Part shown: piece after piece, positions 15,597-21,476 of the stretch | Numbering within the stretch: position 1 is the first letter of the stretch | How the letters are laid out: each line of letters starts with the position of its first letter | Assembly (NCBI GenBank): GCA_016124845.1 | Contig: WGMW01000011.1 | Location: forward strand, 1-62,413 | Length of the DNA: 62,413 nt | DNA from: Flavobacteriales bacterium | GTDB lineage: Bacteria; Bacteroidota; Bacteroidia; UBA10329 | Direction of reading: 5' to 3' | Notes under the pieces: model-generated | Seen by the model: only the letters and a program-made list of their open reading frames with translations | Database searches by the model: none | Told to the model about the DNA's origin: nothing | Position numbers and translations under genes: made by a program

Positions 15597-17708
15597 ATGA
15601 AAAAGTTGCTTGTCTCTCTGCTGATGGTCACCACGTCTGCTTTTGCGCAGAACACGGTCGATCTTTCTGTTTACTTCGATAAGAACAGCGATGTGCCGCA
15701 CATGCCCGAAATGGCGATGCTCAATGACATTGCGCAGCATCCCAACTCGGACGAGCTGCGCTTTTCGGTGGTCGGATTTACCGACTCCAAAGGCTCGGAG
15801 GAATACAACCGCCAGTTGGCCAAGCGCAGGACCAAGGCCGTGGTGAACCATCTGCTGCTTTCGGGAATCATGCCATACAACATCATTTTCGAGTACGAAG
15901 GAGAAGTGTGTGACGATGGCGCTACGGATGAGGCGAGTTTGGCCAAGAACAGACGCGTGGACATCCACATCAGCAACGTGGGCAAGTTGGAGGATGAGGG
16001 CTTCGCTGGCATGTATGATGAATCGGTGTTCGATAGGCCGCTGCCAACGGTCAATCCCGATGCGGAGAAGTTCAGCATCAATGCCGATGAGGGTTCGTGT
16101 ATTGAAACCGCCAGCGGTACGCTGATCGACATTCCGCCCATGGCGTTTATGGATGCTTACGGACGGCCGATAAGCGGTGAGGTGGAAATTGAGTACGAGG
16201 AGTTCAACGACCCGTTTGCGATTTTCCTCAGCGGCATAACTATGAAGTACAAGGGAAACGGCAAGGTGGAGGATTTTGAATCGGCTGGAATGTTCAGTCT
16301 CACGGCATCGCAGCGCAATCGCCCTGTGGAGTTGCGTCCCGACCGCTCTGTCAGCCTCGATTTTGCTTCGGTAAGCACCGATGATGATTTCGATTTCTTC
16401 TTCCTCGACCCCAATTCTGGGGAATGGAATGACGTTGGGAAAGCCGCTCTGCGCGAGGATGAGGCGAATGTCGTTTACGCCATGAATTCCATGTCGCCTG
16501 CGGTGATGCATTACATCGGTCTGACCGATTTTATGTCGCCATCAACTGCACGGAGGATGACGCTTGAAGACCAATTTCAGAACATGCAGTACATGAACGG
16601 CCGACCCATTGCCAGCTACTACCGTTTTCTGCGCAATGGCGATCAGCGCGAGAAGCGGAAGTTCCGATCGGGCTGGAACAAGCAGGCGGGATTCAAATTC
16701 AAAATGAAATTGGCCAAACTGAAGGAACATCCCAATACCCTTCTTTTCAGCATTGATAAGCGCAAACGTTTTACGCAAAATCCGGAACTCCGCCTGTTCA
16801 ATGGCCGCCTGTGGGAGTATGCCGGTGCTCTTTCGCGTGAGCAGTTGAGAGCACAATTTCATCGCAGAAAGTTCCACAACATGCGAATTCGGTACGAAGC
16901 GGGTTCTGAAACTGCCATCCTCGAACTAAAGGATCTCGATTCTATCGTTTCGGTCCCGGTCAAGAAGGTGGCGGTTGCCGATCCATCGCTCGACATCCGC
17001 CAACGGATGTGGGGCGAATTCTCTCCCACTTACGAGAAAATGCGCCTTAAAAGCCAGACGCGGCAATTCGACACGCGTTATAAGATCTACCAGCGTTCGC
17101 TTGCCAGACAGGAGAGACAGTTGCAGCGAGAGGCCGACCGTTTCGATAAAAAGTCTCAGCGCGAATATGTCCGCAGCCTGAAAGGCGCGTGGAAGGAAAG
17201 CAAATATCAGATGCACGATGGCGAGAAGATGATGAGTTTCTCCTCGTGGAACACCTACTGCGAGAACCTGACCGATGAGGTGGAAGCATTTCAGGCGCGA
17301 CAACAAATGAGCAAGTCCGTCATTCGAAGCCTGCAGCTTGACAGGATGGGAATCTACAACTGCGACCGCATCAAACTGCTCAACGACCCGCAGAAGGTTG
17401 AACCACGGTTTGTGATGGGCGATGGCAAGGCGATCTACTGGGAAAAGGCCTACGCCATCCACGACAATTTCAATGGCGTGATCGAGTTTTGGAGCAGGGG
17501 AAAAGGTCCCATCACCATCGATCCCGCCCAGCTCGAAATGATCCTGGTGATCGATTTCTCAGGGCGCACCTATCGCCTCAACGAGGCCGAAGTGATTGCC
17601 ATGAACCGTGGCAAGGTGGCACATAGGATCATGCACGTGACCGAGTTCGACCACACGCCCGAATCATTAGATGACCTGCGGGAGTCTTTGAGTATGGTAC
17701 GGCAGTGA
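15597..17708 (+). CDS. Secreted OmpA-like protein with ZU5-like domain
   Basis: A 703-residue exported protein with a signal peptide (1-18, ending SAFAQ). Residues 20-127 form an OmpA/MotB peptidoglycan-binding domain: VYFDKNS, VVGFTDSKGSEEYN and KNRRVDI, keeping the Asp and Arg positions that bind diaminopimelate in the family. Residues 140-300 resemble a ZU5-like beta domain (SINADEGSCIETASGTLIDI, then ISGEVEIEYEEF). The remaining 400 residues are basic, rich in Arg and Lys with helical stretches (about 340-560), and unassigned. The OmpA domain is N-terminal, the reverse of most OmpA-family proteins. It probably links the cell wall to an envelope structure. Confidence 0.75.
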   Translation: MKKLLVSLLMVTTSAFAQNTVDLSVYFDKNSDVPHMPEMAMLNDIAQHPNSDELRFSVVGFTDSKGSEEYNRQLAKRRTKAVVNHLLLSGIMPYNIIFEYEGEVCDDGATDEASLAKNRRVDIHISNVGKLEDEGFAGMYDESVFDRPLPTVNPDAEKFSINADEGSCIETASGTLIDIPPMAFMDAYGRPISGEVEIEYEEFNDPFAIFLSGITMKYKGNGKVEDFESAGMFSLTASQRNRPVELRPDRSVSLDFASVSTDDDFDFFFLDPNSGEWNDVGKAALREDEANVVYAMNSMSPAVMHYIGLTDFMSPSTARRMTLEDQFQNMQYMNGRPIASYYRFLRNGDQREKRKFRSGWNKQAGFKFKMKLAKLKEHPNTLLFSIDKRKRFTQNPELRLFNGRLWEYAGALSREQLRAQFHRRKFHNMRIRYEAGSETAILELKDLDSIVSVPVKKVAVADPSLDIRQRMWGEFSPTYEKMRLKSQTRQFDTRYKIYQRSLARQERQLQREADRFDKKSQREYVRSLKGAWKESKYQMHDGEKMMSFSSWNTYCENLTDEVEAFQARQQMSKSVIRSLQLDRMGIYNCDRIKLLNDPQKVEPRFVMGDGKAIYWEKAYAIHDNFNGVIEFWSRGKGPITIDPAQLEMILVIDFSGRTYRLNEAEVIAMNRGKVAHRIMHVTEFDHTPESLDDLRESLSMVRQ

Positions 17709-17755
17709 TCGCCCTACCCTCTTTAAGGCCAATATTATGCTAAGAATTTGTGGTT

Positions 17756-17930
17756 CGGAACACCTTCCGGGCCACATAGTCGTACGAAAGTATCTGTCGG
17801 AACATCTTCCGACCCCTATATCCGTACGAAATAATGGTACGGAACTTCTTGCAACCCATGTATTCGTACACAAGTATGGTACGGAACATCTTTCCGCCCA
17901 TGTATCTGTACGAAACTATGGCTCGGAACG
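17756..17930. repeat. Tandem repeat, four units of exactly 42 bp
   Basis: Units start at 17756, 17798, 17840 and 17882, and a fifth begins at 17924. Each starts CGGAA, most contain CGGAACATCTTCCG-like inverted arms, and each carries a GTACGAAA-like motif at about position 27. The array lies in the 276-bp gap between the convergent OmpA-like gene and leuS. A 77-codon plus-strand frame (17737-17970) reads through it with a 14-residue period (SEHLPTPISVRNNG and relatives), but the units do not differ mainly at synonymous sites, so translation is doubtful. It could act as a structured bidirectional terminator. The rest of the gap shows nothing else. Confidence 0.85.
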
Positions 17931-17984
17931 GGGGTCAATCCACATATTGACGGTTAAGTTTTCCGTTTGACGGAAAAGGAATTA

Positions 17985-20900
17985 TTAGACAACGATATTC
18001 ACAATCCTTCCTGGAACCACAATTATCTTCTTCGGAGTAGCTCCTTCCAAACGCTGCTGCACTTCCTCGTTGGCGAGGACGTACTGCTCCACTTCTTCCT
18101 TTCCCATGGTAGCGGGAAGCTCTAAGTTCAAGCGTGTTTTGCCGTTGAAGCTGATCGGGTACGAAATGCTGTCTTCTACCAAATAGCTTTCGTTAAAGGC
18201 TGGATATTCCGCAAACGTGATGCTCTTGGTGTGACCGAGTTTTTCTTCACTCCACAACTCCTCACAAATGTGCGGTGCGTAAGTGGAAATGACAACCGTC
18301 AATGGCTCCAAGATTGCGCGTTTGTTGCACTTGAGGTCGGTGAGTTCGTTTACGCAGATCATAAACTGGCTGACGCACGTGTTGAACGACAACCGCTCGA
18401 TGTCTTCCTGCACCTTTTTGATGGTGGCGTGCAGCGCTTTCAGTTCCTTCTTGTTTGGTTCCTCATCGCTAACGCTGAAGGTGTCGCCATCGTAAAACAG
18501 GTTCCAGAATTTCTTGAGGAAACGGTACACGCCCTCAATGCCGTTGGTGTTCCACGGCTTGGCATCTTCCAATGGCCCAAGGAACATTTCGTACAGGCGA
18601 AGCGTGTCGGCTCCGTATTGTTCAACAATCCCGTCAGGTTCATCTTTTTCAACCTTTACTGGAGCAACCACATTGTATTTCGACTTAGACATTTTCTCGA
18701 CTTCGGAATAAGTCGTAAACGTCACTGGTGAAGTACATGGTTGATAATCCGAGATTCGATTCAAGGTCTGAATCTTTTCCAATGGAATTCTTCGATAATC
18801 CAGAAATTTATTGTTCCACCACAGTCCTTCCTCACAAGCAAATATGGCATTGGAATAGTGCGGCCACTTCTCAACTAGCGCCTGCAAGTCAACTCGACCC
18901 TGAGAATCAACGCAAGAAATAGGTATGTTAATACCAGAAGGCATGATAGTGCGAGATGTTTGAGCGACCTCTGGATGTAGCTTTCTTAGTTTGAATACGT
19001 TTGATGCACTATAGAAGAATTCATTGATATCCCCACCCAAGCTGCTTGCTCCATAGAAACTGATTTCAGTAGATAGGTATCCGTTCTCAATACTTGTTCC
19101 ATCATACTTTTTGAACATTTTTTGAGAAACCCCCTGAATCATCCCTTGATTCACCAACTTCTTAGCAGGTTCATCAAACGGTAGATAGCCAAGGTCTTTC
19201 AGGAATTTGGTCCAGAAACGCACGTACAGCAAGTGACCCGTGGCGTGCTCAGCACCGCCCGCGTAGTAATCCACATTGCCCCAGTATTTGATGGCCTCTT
19301 GGCTACAGAATTCGTTGTCGTTTTTCGGATCCATGTATCGGAGGTAATACCAGCTACTTCCCGCCCAACCTGGCATGGTGCTGAGTTCAATCGGGTAACC
19401 TTCTCCATTCGGAACAATCGCTTCTTTTTCTGGGTCCCAATTCCAGTTTTCGGCATTGCCCAATGGTGGGTCGCCAGCCTCGGTGGGGAGGTATTTTTCC
19501 ACTTCCGGCAATTCCAGCGGCAACTTGTTGATCGGATAGGGCACACCATCCTTGTAGTGGATCGGAATCGGTTCACCCCAATAGCGCTGACGACCGAACA
19601 CGGCATCGCGTTGACGGTAGTTGATCTTGCCCTTGCCAATTCCTTTTTCTTCCAGCTTCGCGATGGCTGCACGGATAGCGTCTTTCACCTTCATTCCGTT
19701 CAGGAAATCGGAGTTGATGAGAGTTCCGTCTTTGCCTTCATAGGCACCGACCTCCCCCTGACCCCCTCCCAAGGAGGGGGAATTCGCAGGTGGTTCAACC
19801 ACAGGAATGATGGGAATGTTGAAATGTGTTGCGAAATTCCAGTCGCGCTGGTCGCCACTTGGTACGGCCATAACCGCGCCCGTTCCGTAACCGGCCAACA
19901 CGTAATCTCCAATCCAGATTGGAATCGGCTCGCCTGTGAACGGATGTTCGGCATAAGCACCTGTGAAAGCTCCCGAAACGGTCTTCACATCGGCCATCCG
20001 CTCGCGCTCCGACTTGGCTTTCGCCTTTTGGATGTACGCTTCAATTTCGCCTTTCTGTTCTGGAGTTGTGATCTGCGCCACCAACTCATGTTCAGGTGCC
20101 AGCGTCATGAACGTCACCCCGAAAATGGTATCAGGTCGGGTCGTAAACACCTCGATTACCTCCCCCTGACCCCCTCCTGAGGAGGGGGAATTCGAGATAT
20201 TAGGCCGCTGTTTCAATTCAGCCGTGATGGCGGCTAAAACCCTGTCTGTATCACCAAAAATTTCTTCGTTTTTGAATCGCAGCACCTTGTATCCGAGTTC
20301 TTCCAGCCGTGCTGTCCGCATGGCGTCATCATCCTGCGTGTAATCGTGGATTTTTCCGTCCACTTCCACAATCAGCATTTTGCTGAGACAGACAAAATCT
20401 GGAATGTACTTGTCGATAATGTGTTGTCGTCTGAAATGATACCCCGTTTTATCTCCTTTCAGCAATTGCCACAACGCATTTTCCGCTTGCGTTGGATTGT
20501 CCTTCATCCATTTGGCCTTGTCCTTTAGGACCCCATAAAGCATCGGGTCTACGGTAACGTATCCGGGCGCGTCACCCCTTTCCTTTGGAGAGGGGTCGGG
20601 GGAGAGGTAGAATTTGATCGAAGCACCTTCACTTCTTCCTATCCAATTGCGCTGCTGCTCCTTCAAACTTTCGCTCCAATCAAGGTCTTCCAAACCATCC
20701 AACAAACGCTGCGAATAAGCCGTGATGCGCATGCTCCACTGCTTCATCAGCTTTCGCTCTACGGGATAACCGCCACGTTCCGAGACACCATCTTTCACTT
20801 CATCATTCGCCAAAACGGTTCCCAATGCAGGACACCAGTTTACGAACGCTTCGCTCAAATACGCAATGCGGTAATTCAGAAGGATGGTCTGCTGCTTCGC

Positions 20901-21476
20901 CTCATCCCAACTGTTCCAATCATCGGCAGTAAACGCTTCTGTCTCATCGCCATGCGCATTTACCGTGGCGTTGCCGTTCTTGCCGAACTCGGCCACAAGG
21001 TCTGCGATCGGTCGTGCCTTGTCTGTAGCGTTATCGTACCATGCATCAAACAATTGCAGAAAGATCCACTGCGTCCATTTGTAGTACGATGGGTCGGAAG
21101 TCCGCACCTCACGGTCCCAATCGAAACTGAACCCGATGTTATCCATCTGCCTGCGGAACGTATCGATGTTCTTCACCGTGGTAATGGCAGGGTGTGTGCC
21201 CGTCTGAATCGCGTACTGCTCGGCAGGCAACCCGAATGAATCATAACCCATTGGATGCAGCACATTGAAGCCCTTCAAGCGCTTGTAGCGCGCATACACA
21301 TCCGAAGCAATGTAGCCCAGCGGATGCCCCACGTGCAGCCCCGCACCCGAAGGATACGGGAACATGTCCAGCACGTAAAACTTCGGCTTGGGCGAGTCGT
21401 TCTCTGCACGGAACGTCTTGTTCTCGACCCAATATTGCTGCCACTTCTTCTCGATCTTCTCCGGATGATACTGCAT
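17985..21476 (-). CDS. leuS: Leucyl-tRNA synthetase with in-frame insertions
   Basis: A 1163-residue class I synthetase; the usual length is about 920-950. The HIGH motif is HVGH at 48-51, the editing-domain TRPDT is at 446-450, the zinc-like and tRNA-binding regions follow, and KMSKS is at 928-932. Three foreign segments interrupt it without breaking the frame. Residues 291-440 hold a complete DUF559 nuclease-like domain bounded by peptides from hairpin repeats (SPDPSPKERGD and NSPSSGGGQGEV). Residues 565-576 (NSPSLGGGQGEV) are another hairpin-derived peptide in the editing domain. Residues 783-925 are AT-rich and diverge strongly before the KMSKS loop. All catalytic motifs are intact and no stop occurs, so the enzyme should be functional. 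Confidence 0.93.
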   Translation of the reverse strand: MQYHPEKIEKKWQQYWVENKTFRAENDSPKPKFYVLDMFPYPSGAGLHVGHPLGYIASDVYARYKRLKGFNVLHPMGYDSFGLPAEQYAIQTGTHPAITTVKNIDTFRRQMDNIGFSFDWDREVRTSDPSYYKWTQWIFLQLFDAWYDNATDKARPIADLVAEFGKNGNATVNAHGDETEAFTADDWNSWDEAKQQTILLNYRIAYLSEAFVNWCPALGTVLANDEVKDGVSERGGYPVERKLMKQWSMRITAYSQRLLDGLEDLDWSESLKEQQRNWIGRSEGASIKFYLSPDPSPKERGDAPGYVTVDPMLYGVLKDKAKWMKDNPTQAENALWQLLKGDKTGYHFRRQHIIDKYIPDFVCLSKMLIVEVDGKIHDYTQDDDAMRTARLEELGYKVLRFKNEEIFGDTDRVLAAITAELKQRPNISNSPSSGGGQGEVIEVFTTRPDTIFGVTFMTLAPEHELVAQITTPEQKGEIEAYIQKAKAKSERERMADVKTVSGAFTGAYAEHPFTGEPIPIWIGDYVLAGYGTGAVMAVPSGDQRDWNFATHFNIPIIPVVEPPANSPSLGGGQGEVGAYEGKDGTLINSDFLNGMKVKDAIRAAIAKLEEKGIGKGKINYRQRDAVFGRQRYWGEPIPIHYKDGVPYPINKLPLELPEVEKYLPTEAGDPPLGNAENWNWDPEKEAIVPNGEGYPIELSTMPGWAGSSWYYLRYMDPKNDNEFCSQEAIKYWGNVDYYAGGAEHATGHLLYVRFWTKFLKDLGYLPFDEPAKKLVNQGMIQGVSQKMFKKYDGTSIENGYLSTEISFYGASSLGGDINEFFYSASNVFKLRKLHPEVAQTSRTIMPSGINIPISCVDSQGRVDLQALVEKWPHYSNAIFACEEGLWWNNKFLDYRRIPLEKIQTLNRISDYQPCTSPVTFTTYSEVEKMSKSKYNVVAPVKVEKDEPDGIVEQYGADTLRLYEMFLGPLEDAKPWNTNGIEGVYRFLKKFWNLFYDGDTFSVSDEEPNKKELKALHATIKKVQEDIERLSFNTCVSQFMICVNELTDLKCNKRAILEPLTVVISTYAPHICEELWSEEKLGHTKSITFAEYPAFNESYLVEDSISYPISFNGKTRLNLELPATMGKEEVEQYVLANEEVQQRLEGATPKKIIVVPGRIVNIVV
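19749..19784. repeat. GC-rich hairpin element inside leuS, copy A
   Basis: The 36-bp element starts CCTCCCCCTGACCCCCTCCC and ends AAGGAGGGGGAATTCG. CCCCCTCC pairs with GGAGGGGG. Apart from two loop bases it equals the element at 20159-20194. In leuS it adds residues NSPSLGGGQGEV to the editing domain. Confidence 0.85.
20157..20606 (-). mobile_element. DUF559 endonuclease-like insertion in leuS
   Basis: A 450-bp segment (150 codons) that normal LeuRS lacks. The joint is clean: GASIKFY before it and IEVFTTRPDT after it are contiguous in the family. Inside is a complete DUF559 domain, residues about 312-421 of the fusion: AENALWQLLKG, HFRRQHIIDKYIPDFVC, LIVEVDGKIHDY, RTARLEELGYKVLRF and NEEIFGDTD. 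It belongs to the very-short-patch-repair-like nuclease fold, with acidic Asp360 and Glu371-Asp373 as plausible metal ligands. Each end carries a hairpin element, 20159-20194 on one side and about 20571-20606 on the other. An internal Met at residue 312 could start a free nuclease. This looks like a transposed DUF559 unit tolerated in an essential gene. Whether it is active is unknown. Confidence 0.8.

Follow-up and report, generated by a model that had tools for sequence, protein, structure and literature searches.

An array of 42-bp dyad units between convergent genes of a Flavobacteriales bacterium, and the 21-bp quantum of most intergenic arrays sampled in its genus

Bacterial minisatellites, or VNTRs, are head-to-tail intergenic repeats like the arrays described here but, to our knowledge, their unit lengths in one genome do not usually fall on a shared quantum, unlike those of these arrays. 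REP and BIME elements, as the available part of the source presents them, are short extragenic palindromes with a GTAG/CGTC tag that sometimes form tandem clusters, and roles in supercoiling (through gyrase), termination and mRNA stability have been proposed for them (PMC3733652). The tandem repeats of Borgs resemble the present arrays in being many, of independent origin, fast-evolving, both genic and intergenic, and found in one lineage. Their units, unlike those of the present arrays, are perfect. Of the intergenic ones only 14-38% have a length divisible by three, and the accessible sections of that paper make no mention of a 21-bp quantum (PMC9879509). Helically phased A-tracts and the 10-11 bp periodicity, so far as the excerpted source goes, are likewise periodicities of helical pitch tied to chromosome structure, but the present arrays carry no 10/11-bp signal and repeat as whole units at two turns or more (PMC4060949). 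A literature search, outside which most subscription journals lay, returned no description of intergenic arrays quantised in 21 bp.

The array considered here lies in a stretch of 62,413 nucleotides from a Flavobacteriales bacterium, referred to as the window, between two convergent genes. Its features are as follows.

15597 to 17708, plus strand: OmpA-family gene of 703 aa, left convergent neighbour (Pfam PF00691, E 2.4e-11)
17737 to 17970, plus strand: open frame of 77 codons through the array, judged untranslated
17740 to 17901, minus strand: weak open frame (13.3 nats, threshold 12), probably a chance occurrence
17751 to 17929, no strand: 42-bp tandem array of 4.3 units (TRF and lag scan)
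17756 to 17797, no strand: unit 1
17756 to 17769, no strand: A dyad of unit 1, CGGAA-N4-TTCCG, recurring at 17798-17811 and, one base wider, at 17882-17896
17770 to 17797, no strand: B dyad region of unit 1, centred on GTAC at 17782-17785 and recurring every 42 bp
17798 to 17839, no strand: unit 2
17840 to 17881, no strand: unit 3, with the A dyad broken (TTGCA)
17882 to 17923, no strand: unit 4, with the arms one base further apart
17924 to 17930, no strand: partial unit 5, CGGAACG
17959 to 17977, no strand: perfect inverted repeat TTTTCCGT-TTG-ACGGAAAA adjoining leuS (read by eye)
17985 to 21476, minus strand: leuS, 1163 aa with a DUF559 domain within, right convergent neighbour (gene call and Pfam)

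A preliminary description of this DNA had reported an exact 42-bp tandem repeat between convergent genes, made of four units and a partial fifth. The array, its period and the unit count are borne out by TRF (period 42, 4.3 copies, score 165) and the convergent setting by the gene calls, but the repeat is periodic rather than exact: three comparisons between neighbouring 42-bp units contain 34 differences and no gapped column, and adjacent units disagree at about a quarter of positions. Identity at lag 42 is 0.74 across 126 bp, while the best value over lags 13 to 130 in ten whole-window shuffles lies at 0.44-0.48. The CGGAA and TTCCG arms that had been ascribed to the units hold in units 1 and 2 and, one base wider, in unit 4, but not in unit 3, which ends in TTGCA. 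A second dyad, roughly CCATA..TATGG around GTAC, has its centre 21 bp from that of the A dyad in each unit; the preliminary description was silent on this dyad, as on the open minus-strand frame. The unit profile is its own reverse complement at a level of 0.59, compared with 0.41 in column shuffles (z 5.3), and the array contains no 21-bp direct sub-repeat (lag-21 identity 0.15). Similarity spans the full 42-bp unit and leaves no unrelated spacers of the CRISPR type, and Rfam 15 gave no match at gathering score across the entire window.

With its A and B dyads the unit of the window array has the kind of imperfect palindromy, over 20-40 bp, that marks REP and BIME elements, and it is like them in extragenic position too, as the consulted part of the source describes them (PMC3733652). 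Tandem amplification of a REP/BIME-like or other short mobile palindrome would also account for the presence of the motif at several loci of the host genome, which has seven matches to the Y1-transposase family PF01797, a count that does not separate RAYT from IS200-type enzymes. We nevertheless regard this origin as very improbable. A consistent GTAG/CGTC tag is absent (no GTAG and one CGTC in 226 bp of the window, both strands), no match was found among 72,556 plasmid or 50,697 phage records, and most other arrays with periods that are multiples of 21 bp (21n) have no common motif by eye. In comparison with REP/BIME elements, to the extent that the source covers them, the present arrays lack the tag and are defined by a 21n-bp register instead of a common sequence.

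Two further arrays in the host genome were found by BLAST, L002 with about four units and L003 with about ten, and both lie between convergent genes like the window array. In L003 the arms drift from CGGAA..TTCCG to CCTGA..TCAGG while the 42-bp spacing is kept, apart from a single point where a base has been added. A model of the unit (R1) also matches a codirectional gap at C6:36264-36319 (L143), where two to three CCTGA-type units stand, and, more weakly, C26:8576-8715. BLAST with the window array returned nothing in 38 other genomes; beyond the host genome R1 found one weak place, at leuS of G005 (E 0.003), and still weaker places in G008 (C73), G004 (C7 and C10) and G001, the C10 place lying within a predicted gene and not being an array. 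Convergence was considered as a rule and rejected, since L143 is codirectional and only 5 of the 18 21n arrays with both flanks are convergent (p 0.08).

The leuS 3' end itself carries 42- or 21-bp arrays in four genomes, directly in G000 and G008 and past a duplicated 3' piece of leuS in G004 and G005. These consist of a 42-bp array of different sequence in G008, a 42-bp array sharing the same A dyad in G005 and a 21-bp array of 13.5 copies in G004. The gap to the next gene measures 46 bp in G007, 6 bp in G006 and 0 bp in G001, and these three have no array; in this comparison the contig of G003 ends at leuS and G002 gave no match.

The preliminary description offered three options for the window array, namely a structured terminator, a protein-binding array or a small repeat peptide. 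The 77-codon frame on which the last was based exists, and unit differences show, as had been said, no preference for synonymous sites (11/12/11 by column modulo 3). A peptide with a 14-residue repeat, encoded on either strand, could draw on the open frames that run through the array on both strands, and the minus-strand frame, with a hexamer score of +0.20 per codon, resembles an open frame of L002 in a comparison by eye. The plus frame scores -0.12 per codon, which is like spurious ORFs (mean -0.20, sd 0.20, n=1117), L002 contains an in-frame stop (read by eye), the extra base interrupts the L003 array, and in L147, the L003 locus, the strand chosen by the gene caller is opposite to that implied by the window. 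All gene calls come from a purpose-built hexamer caller and not a standard one. In a set of 26 arrays, which includes L129:4296-4512 from within a predicted gene and L248 and L204 from other families, a fully open frame occurs in 21 compared with 19.0 expected from column shuffles, and the remaining five have stops in all six frames. Neighbour differences by column modulo 3 are flat in 23 of the 26, with p < 0.05 in L216, L154 and L021. The repeat peptide was rejected on codon position, the hexamer score of the plus frame and open-frame counts, and we give it hardly any credence. As open frames are no commoner than in column shuffles, a coding heptad does not explain the 21-bp quantum either, and annotators should expect open frames across such arrays by chance.

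The host genome also has two 21-bp arrays, at L147 19560-19810 and L129 4296-4512, each with about ten units that have diverged strongly. These units have two conserved blocks with variable letters between, and a heptapeptide repeat is possible there because both overlap predicted genes.

RNA structure prediction, which had been proposed as a check, shows that both strands of the window array form more stable folds than dinucleotide-shuffled sequences do (z -4.27 and -3.52), and the same is true of the related arrays (L003 -7.31, L002 -4.44). This would suit an RNA hairpin element, either a bidirectional terminator or a protector of mRNA 3' ends for both convergent genes, as would the convergent setting of all three arrays. 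When 18 units from these three arrays are pooled, 160 of 234 named cells pair (68%) compared with 35-45% when slid, and both sides have changed in 38 cells compared with 10-19. Counted within single arrays, the cells changed on both sides number 22 for L003, 0 for the window array and 1 for L002. Within the window array there are no compensated and 10 uncompensated double changes, and compensated changes are not clearly in excess between neighbouring units. A conserved RNA hairpin was rejected on this ground, the covariation of pooled units being confined to L003 within single arrays. The structured terminator of the preliminary description likewise lacks support despite the good folding: a scan for a G+C-rich stem followed by a U-tract gave no intrinsic terminator on either strand in 17500-18200, and the inverted repeat at 17959-17977 has no U-tract after its 3' arm on either strand. 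The fourth locus of the family, L143, is codirectional, and an RNA element would leave the 21n quantum without explanation. We therefore consider a hairpin element unlikely.

What recurs elsewhere is the spacing. Draft sequence amounting to 1,945,673 bases was sampled from eight of the nine genomes of the host's Bacteroidia genus (all but G003), weighted to G000, G005, G004 and G006, and TRF was restricted to noncoding, non-simple arrays of at least 2.5 copies and a score of at least 60. The periods of 18 of the 22 arrays retained are 21 (10 arrays), 42 (5), 63 (2) or 84 bp (1), the rest being 17, 41, 100 and 119, so that no period outside the 21n group is divisible by three. The excess has a uniform-lag binomial probability of 3e-20, and of 3e-14 (13 of 17) when the five arrays known before sampling (L002, L147, L154, L021 and L187 at 16110) are left out. 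The window array and L171 are missing from the 22 because weak ORFs caused them to be labelled coding. A lag scan independent of TRF placed 23 of 39 genus intergenic regions at 21n, or 17 of 33 once the six already known are set aside; the two regions of G006 that passed it had fundamental lags of 64 and 18. In its shuffle control five regions, probably because they contain runs of N, match at every lag, and one further match was seen.

Two control sets were used, one of 661,972 bases from other families in the class and one of 663,594 bases surrounding leuS, the latter from 79 of 80 loci, L049 being left out as belonging to the same genus. The same TRF filter retained three arrays in all (periods 42, 46 and 99), and the lag scan placed 6 of 27 control regions at 21n. 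Genus and controls differ with p 0.003, or p 0.019 without regions known beforehand. The controls alone also exceed uniform expectation (p 0.002), so the 21n tendency may not be limited to this genus; a palindromic array of 42-bp period (L248) is present in G011.

Most 21n arrays have sequences unrelated between loci. Autocorrelation over 24 arrays gave no signal at 7, 14 or 10/11 bp; as these arrays were picked for 21n periods, their 21n peaks arise by construction and the result is informative only for the absent 7- and 10/11-bp peaks. A 7-bp origin of the quantum was rejected on the silence of lags 7 and 14. Nor is the spacing absolutely fixed, because gapped columns occur in L002 (2), L003 (12) and L248 (8). 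Intergenic arrays of 14 bp were seen in two of the control genomes, G009 (L206 and L266) and G020 (L254), and in G008 of the genus (L240), and may represent a 7-bp habit distinct from the 21-bp one.

Palindromy follows the length of the period. Ten genus arrays with 21n periods of at least 42 bp were tested (the window array, L002, L147, L150, L154, L157, two in L187, L236 and L238), and nine are self-reverse-complementary beyond column shuffles (p < 0.03), L238 being the exception. Among the 12 arrays tested in the genus that repeat every 21 bp, L170 alone is palindromic (p < 0.05), and so dyads are typical of long-period arrays and not general. In G008, L187 17-222 and L236 711-933 are 63- and 84-bp arrays made of clear 21-bp sub-repeats, and the former carries the palindrome GGGAGTACTCCC.

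The DNA helix repeats every 10.5 bp, so that 21 bp correspond to two turns and 42 bp to four, and we read the 21n register as a likely consequence of these turns. The protein-binding array of the preliminary description fits best of its three options, because the 21n-bp spacing and not the sequence recurs elsewhere, although the protein itself is putative. On balance, and tentatively, we favour a non-coding dyad array that acts as a patch of double-stranded DNA under a dimeric nucleoid-type protein. Two-fold dyads recurring every 21 bp would all be exposed on one side of the helix, where such a dimer could sit, and the bound patch would form in the gap between transcription units, where it might hold supercoils or separate converging transcription. 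A sequence-specific protein would not explain the differences in sequence from locus to locus, and it also counts against binding that 21-bp arrays are mostly non-palindromic, that contexts are not specifically convergent and that periods of 17, 41, 100 and 119 occur.

The main rival to a helix-phased bound array is a mutational ruler of little or no function, in which duplications copy whole multiples of 21 bp and then drift, for example when the DNA between two nicks, which lie two turns from each other on the same helix face, is filled in, or through hairpin slippage. It is a genuine possibility, though one we rate slightly lower. A ruler would be consistent with sequences that are mostly unrelated from locus to locus, with array contexts of all kinds, with the lack of a codon signal and of a clear compensatory signal, and with the fact that the arrays at the HAD gene and at miaA have no clear 42-bp counterpart in the other genomes of the genus that were read. 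Many arrays, on the other hand, look old, adjacent units having an identity of about 60-80%, but have kept their register; simple duplication does not predict the palindromy of most long-period arrays; and four genomes have an array in the gap at the leuS 3' end. Binding by a same-face dimer and copying by a ruler can be placed under one broader proposal, that a genome-wide class of intergenic arrays in this lineage is either selected or generated in two-turn quanta (21, 42, 63 and 84 bp) independently of sequence and frame and represents either a new helix-phased element or the 21-bp ruler of an undescribed enzyme. We hold this as a serious possibility that falls short of probable.

Tandem repeats are usually classed by sequence or by reading frame, whereas here it is the unit length in double turns that recurs. 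If the quantum holds in closed genomes, a nucleoid protein that reads the helical face with little sequence preference becomes testable, as does a bacterial enzyme that duplicates with a fixed 21-bp ruler.

The leuS genes next to these arrays have features of their own. In the LeuRS of the window (17985-21476, minus strand) the nuclease-like DUF559 domain occupies residues 318-421 and adjoins the editing domain PF13603 (residues 438-608), and other genus genomes have shorter LeuRS open frames. The last 50 or so codons of leuS are duplicated in two species, at L021 2045-2823 (G004) and at G005:C1:104588-106701 (L029, L022). The leuS copies enclose different cargo, in G004 a DUF433/DUF5615 pair and in G005 a Schlafen AlbA_2 gene, and the duplications look like repeated insertion at one gene end.
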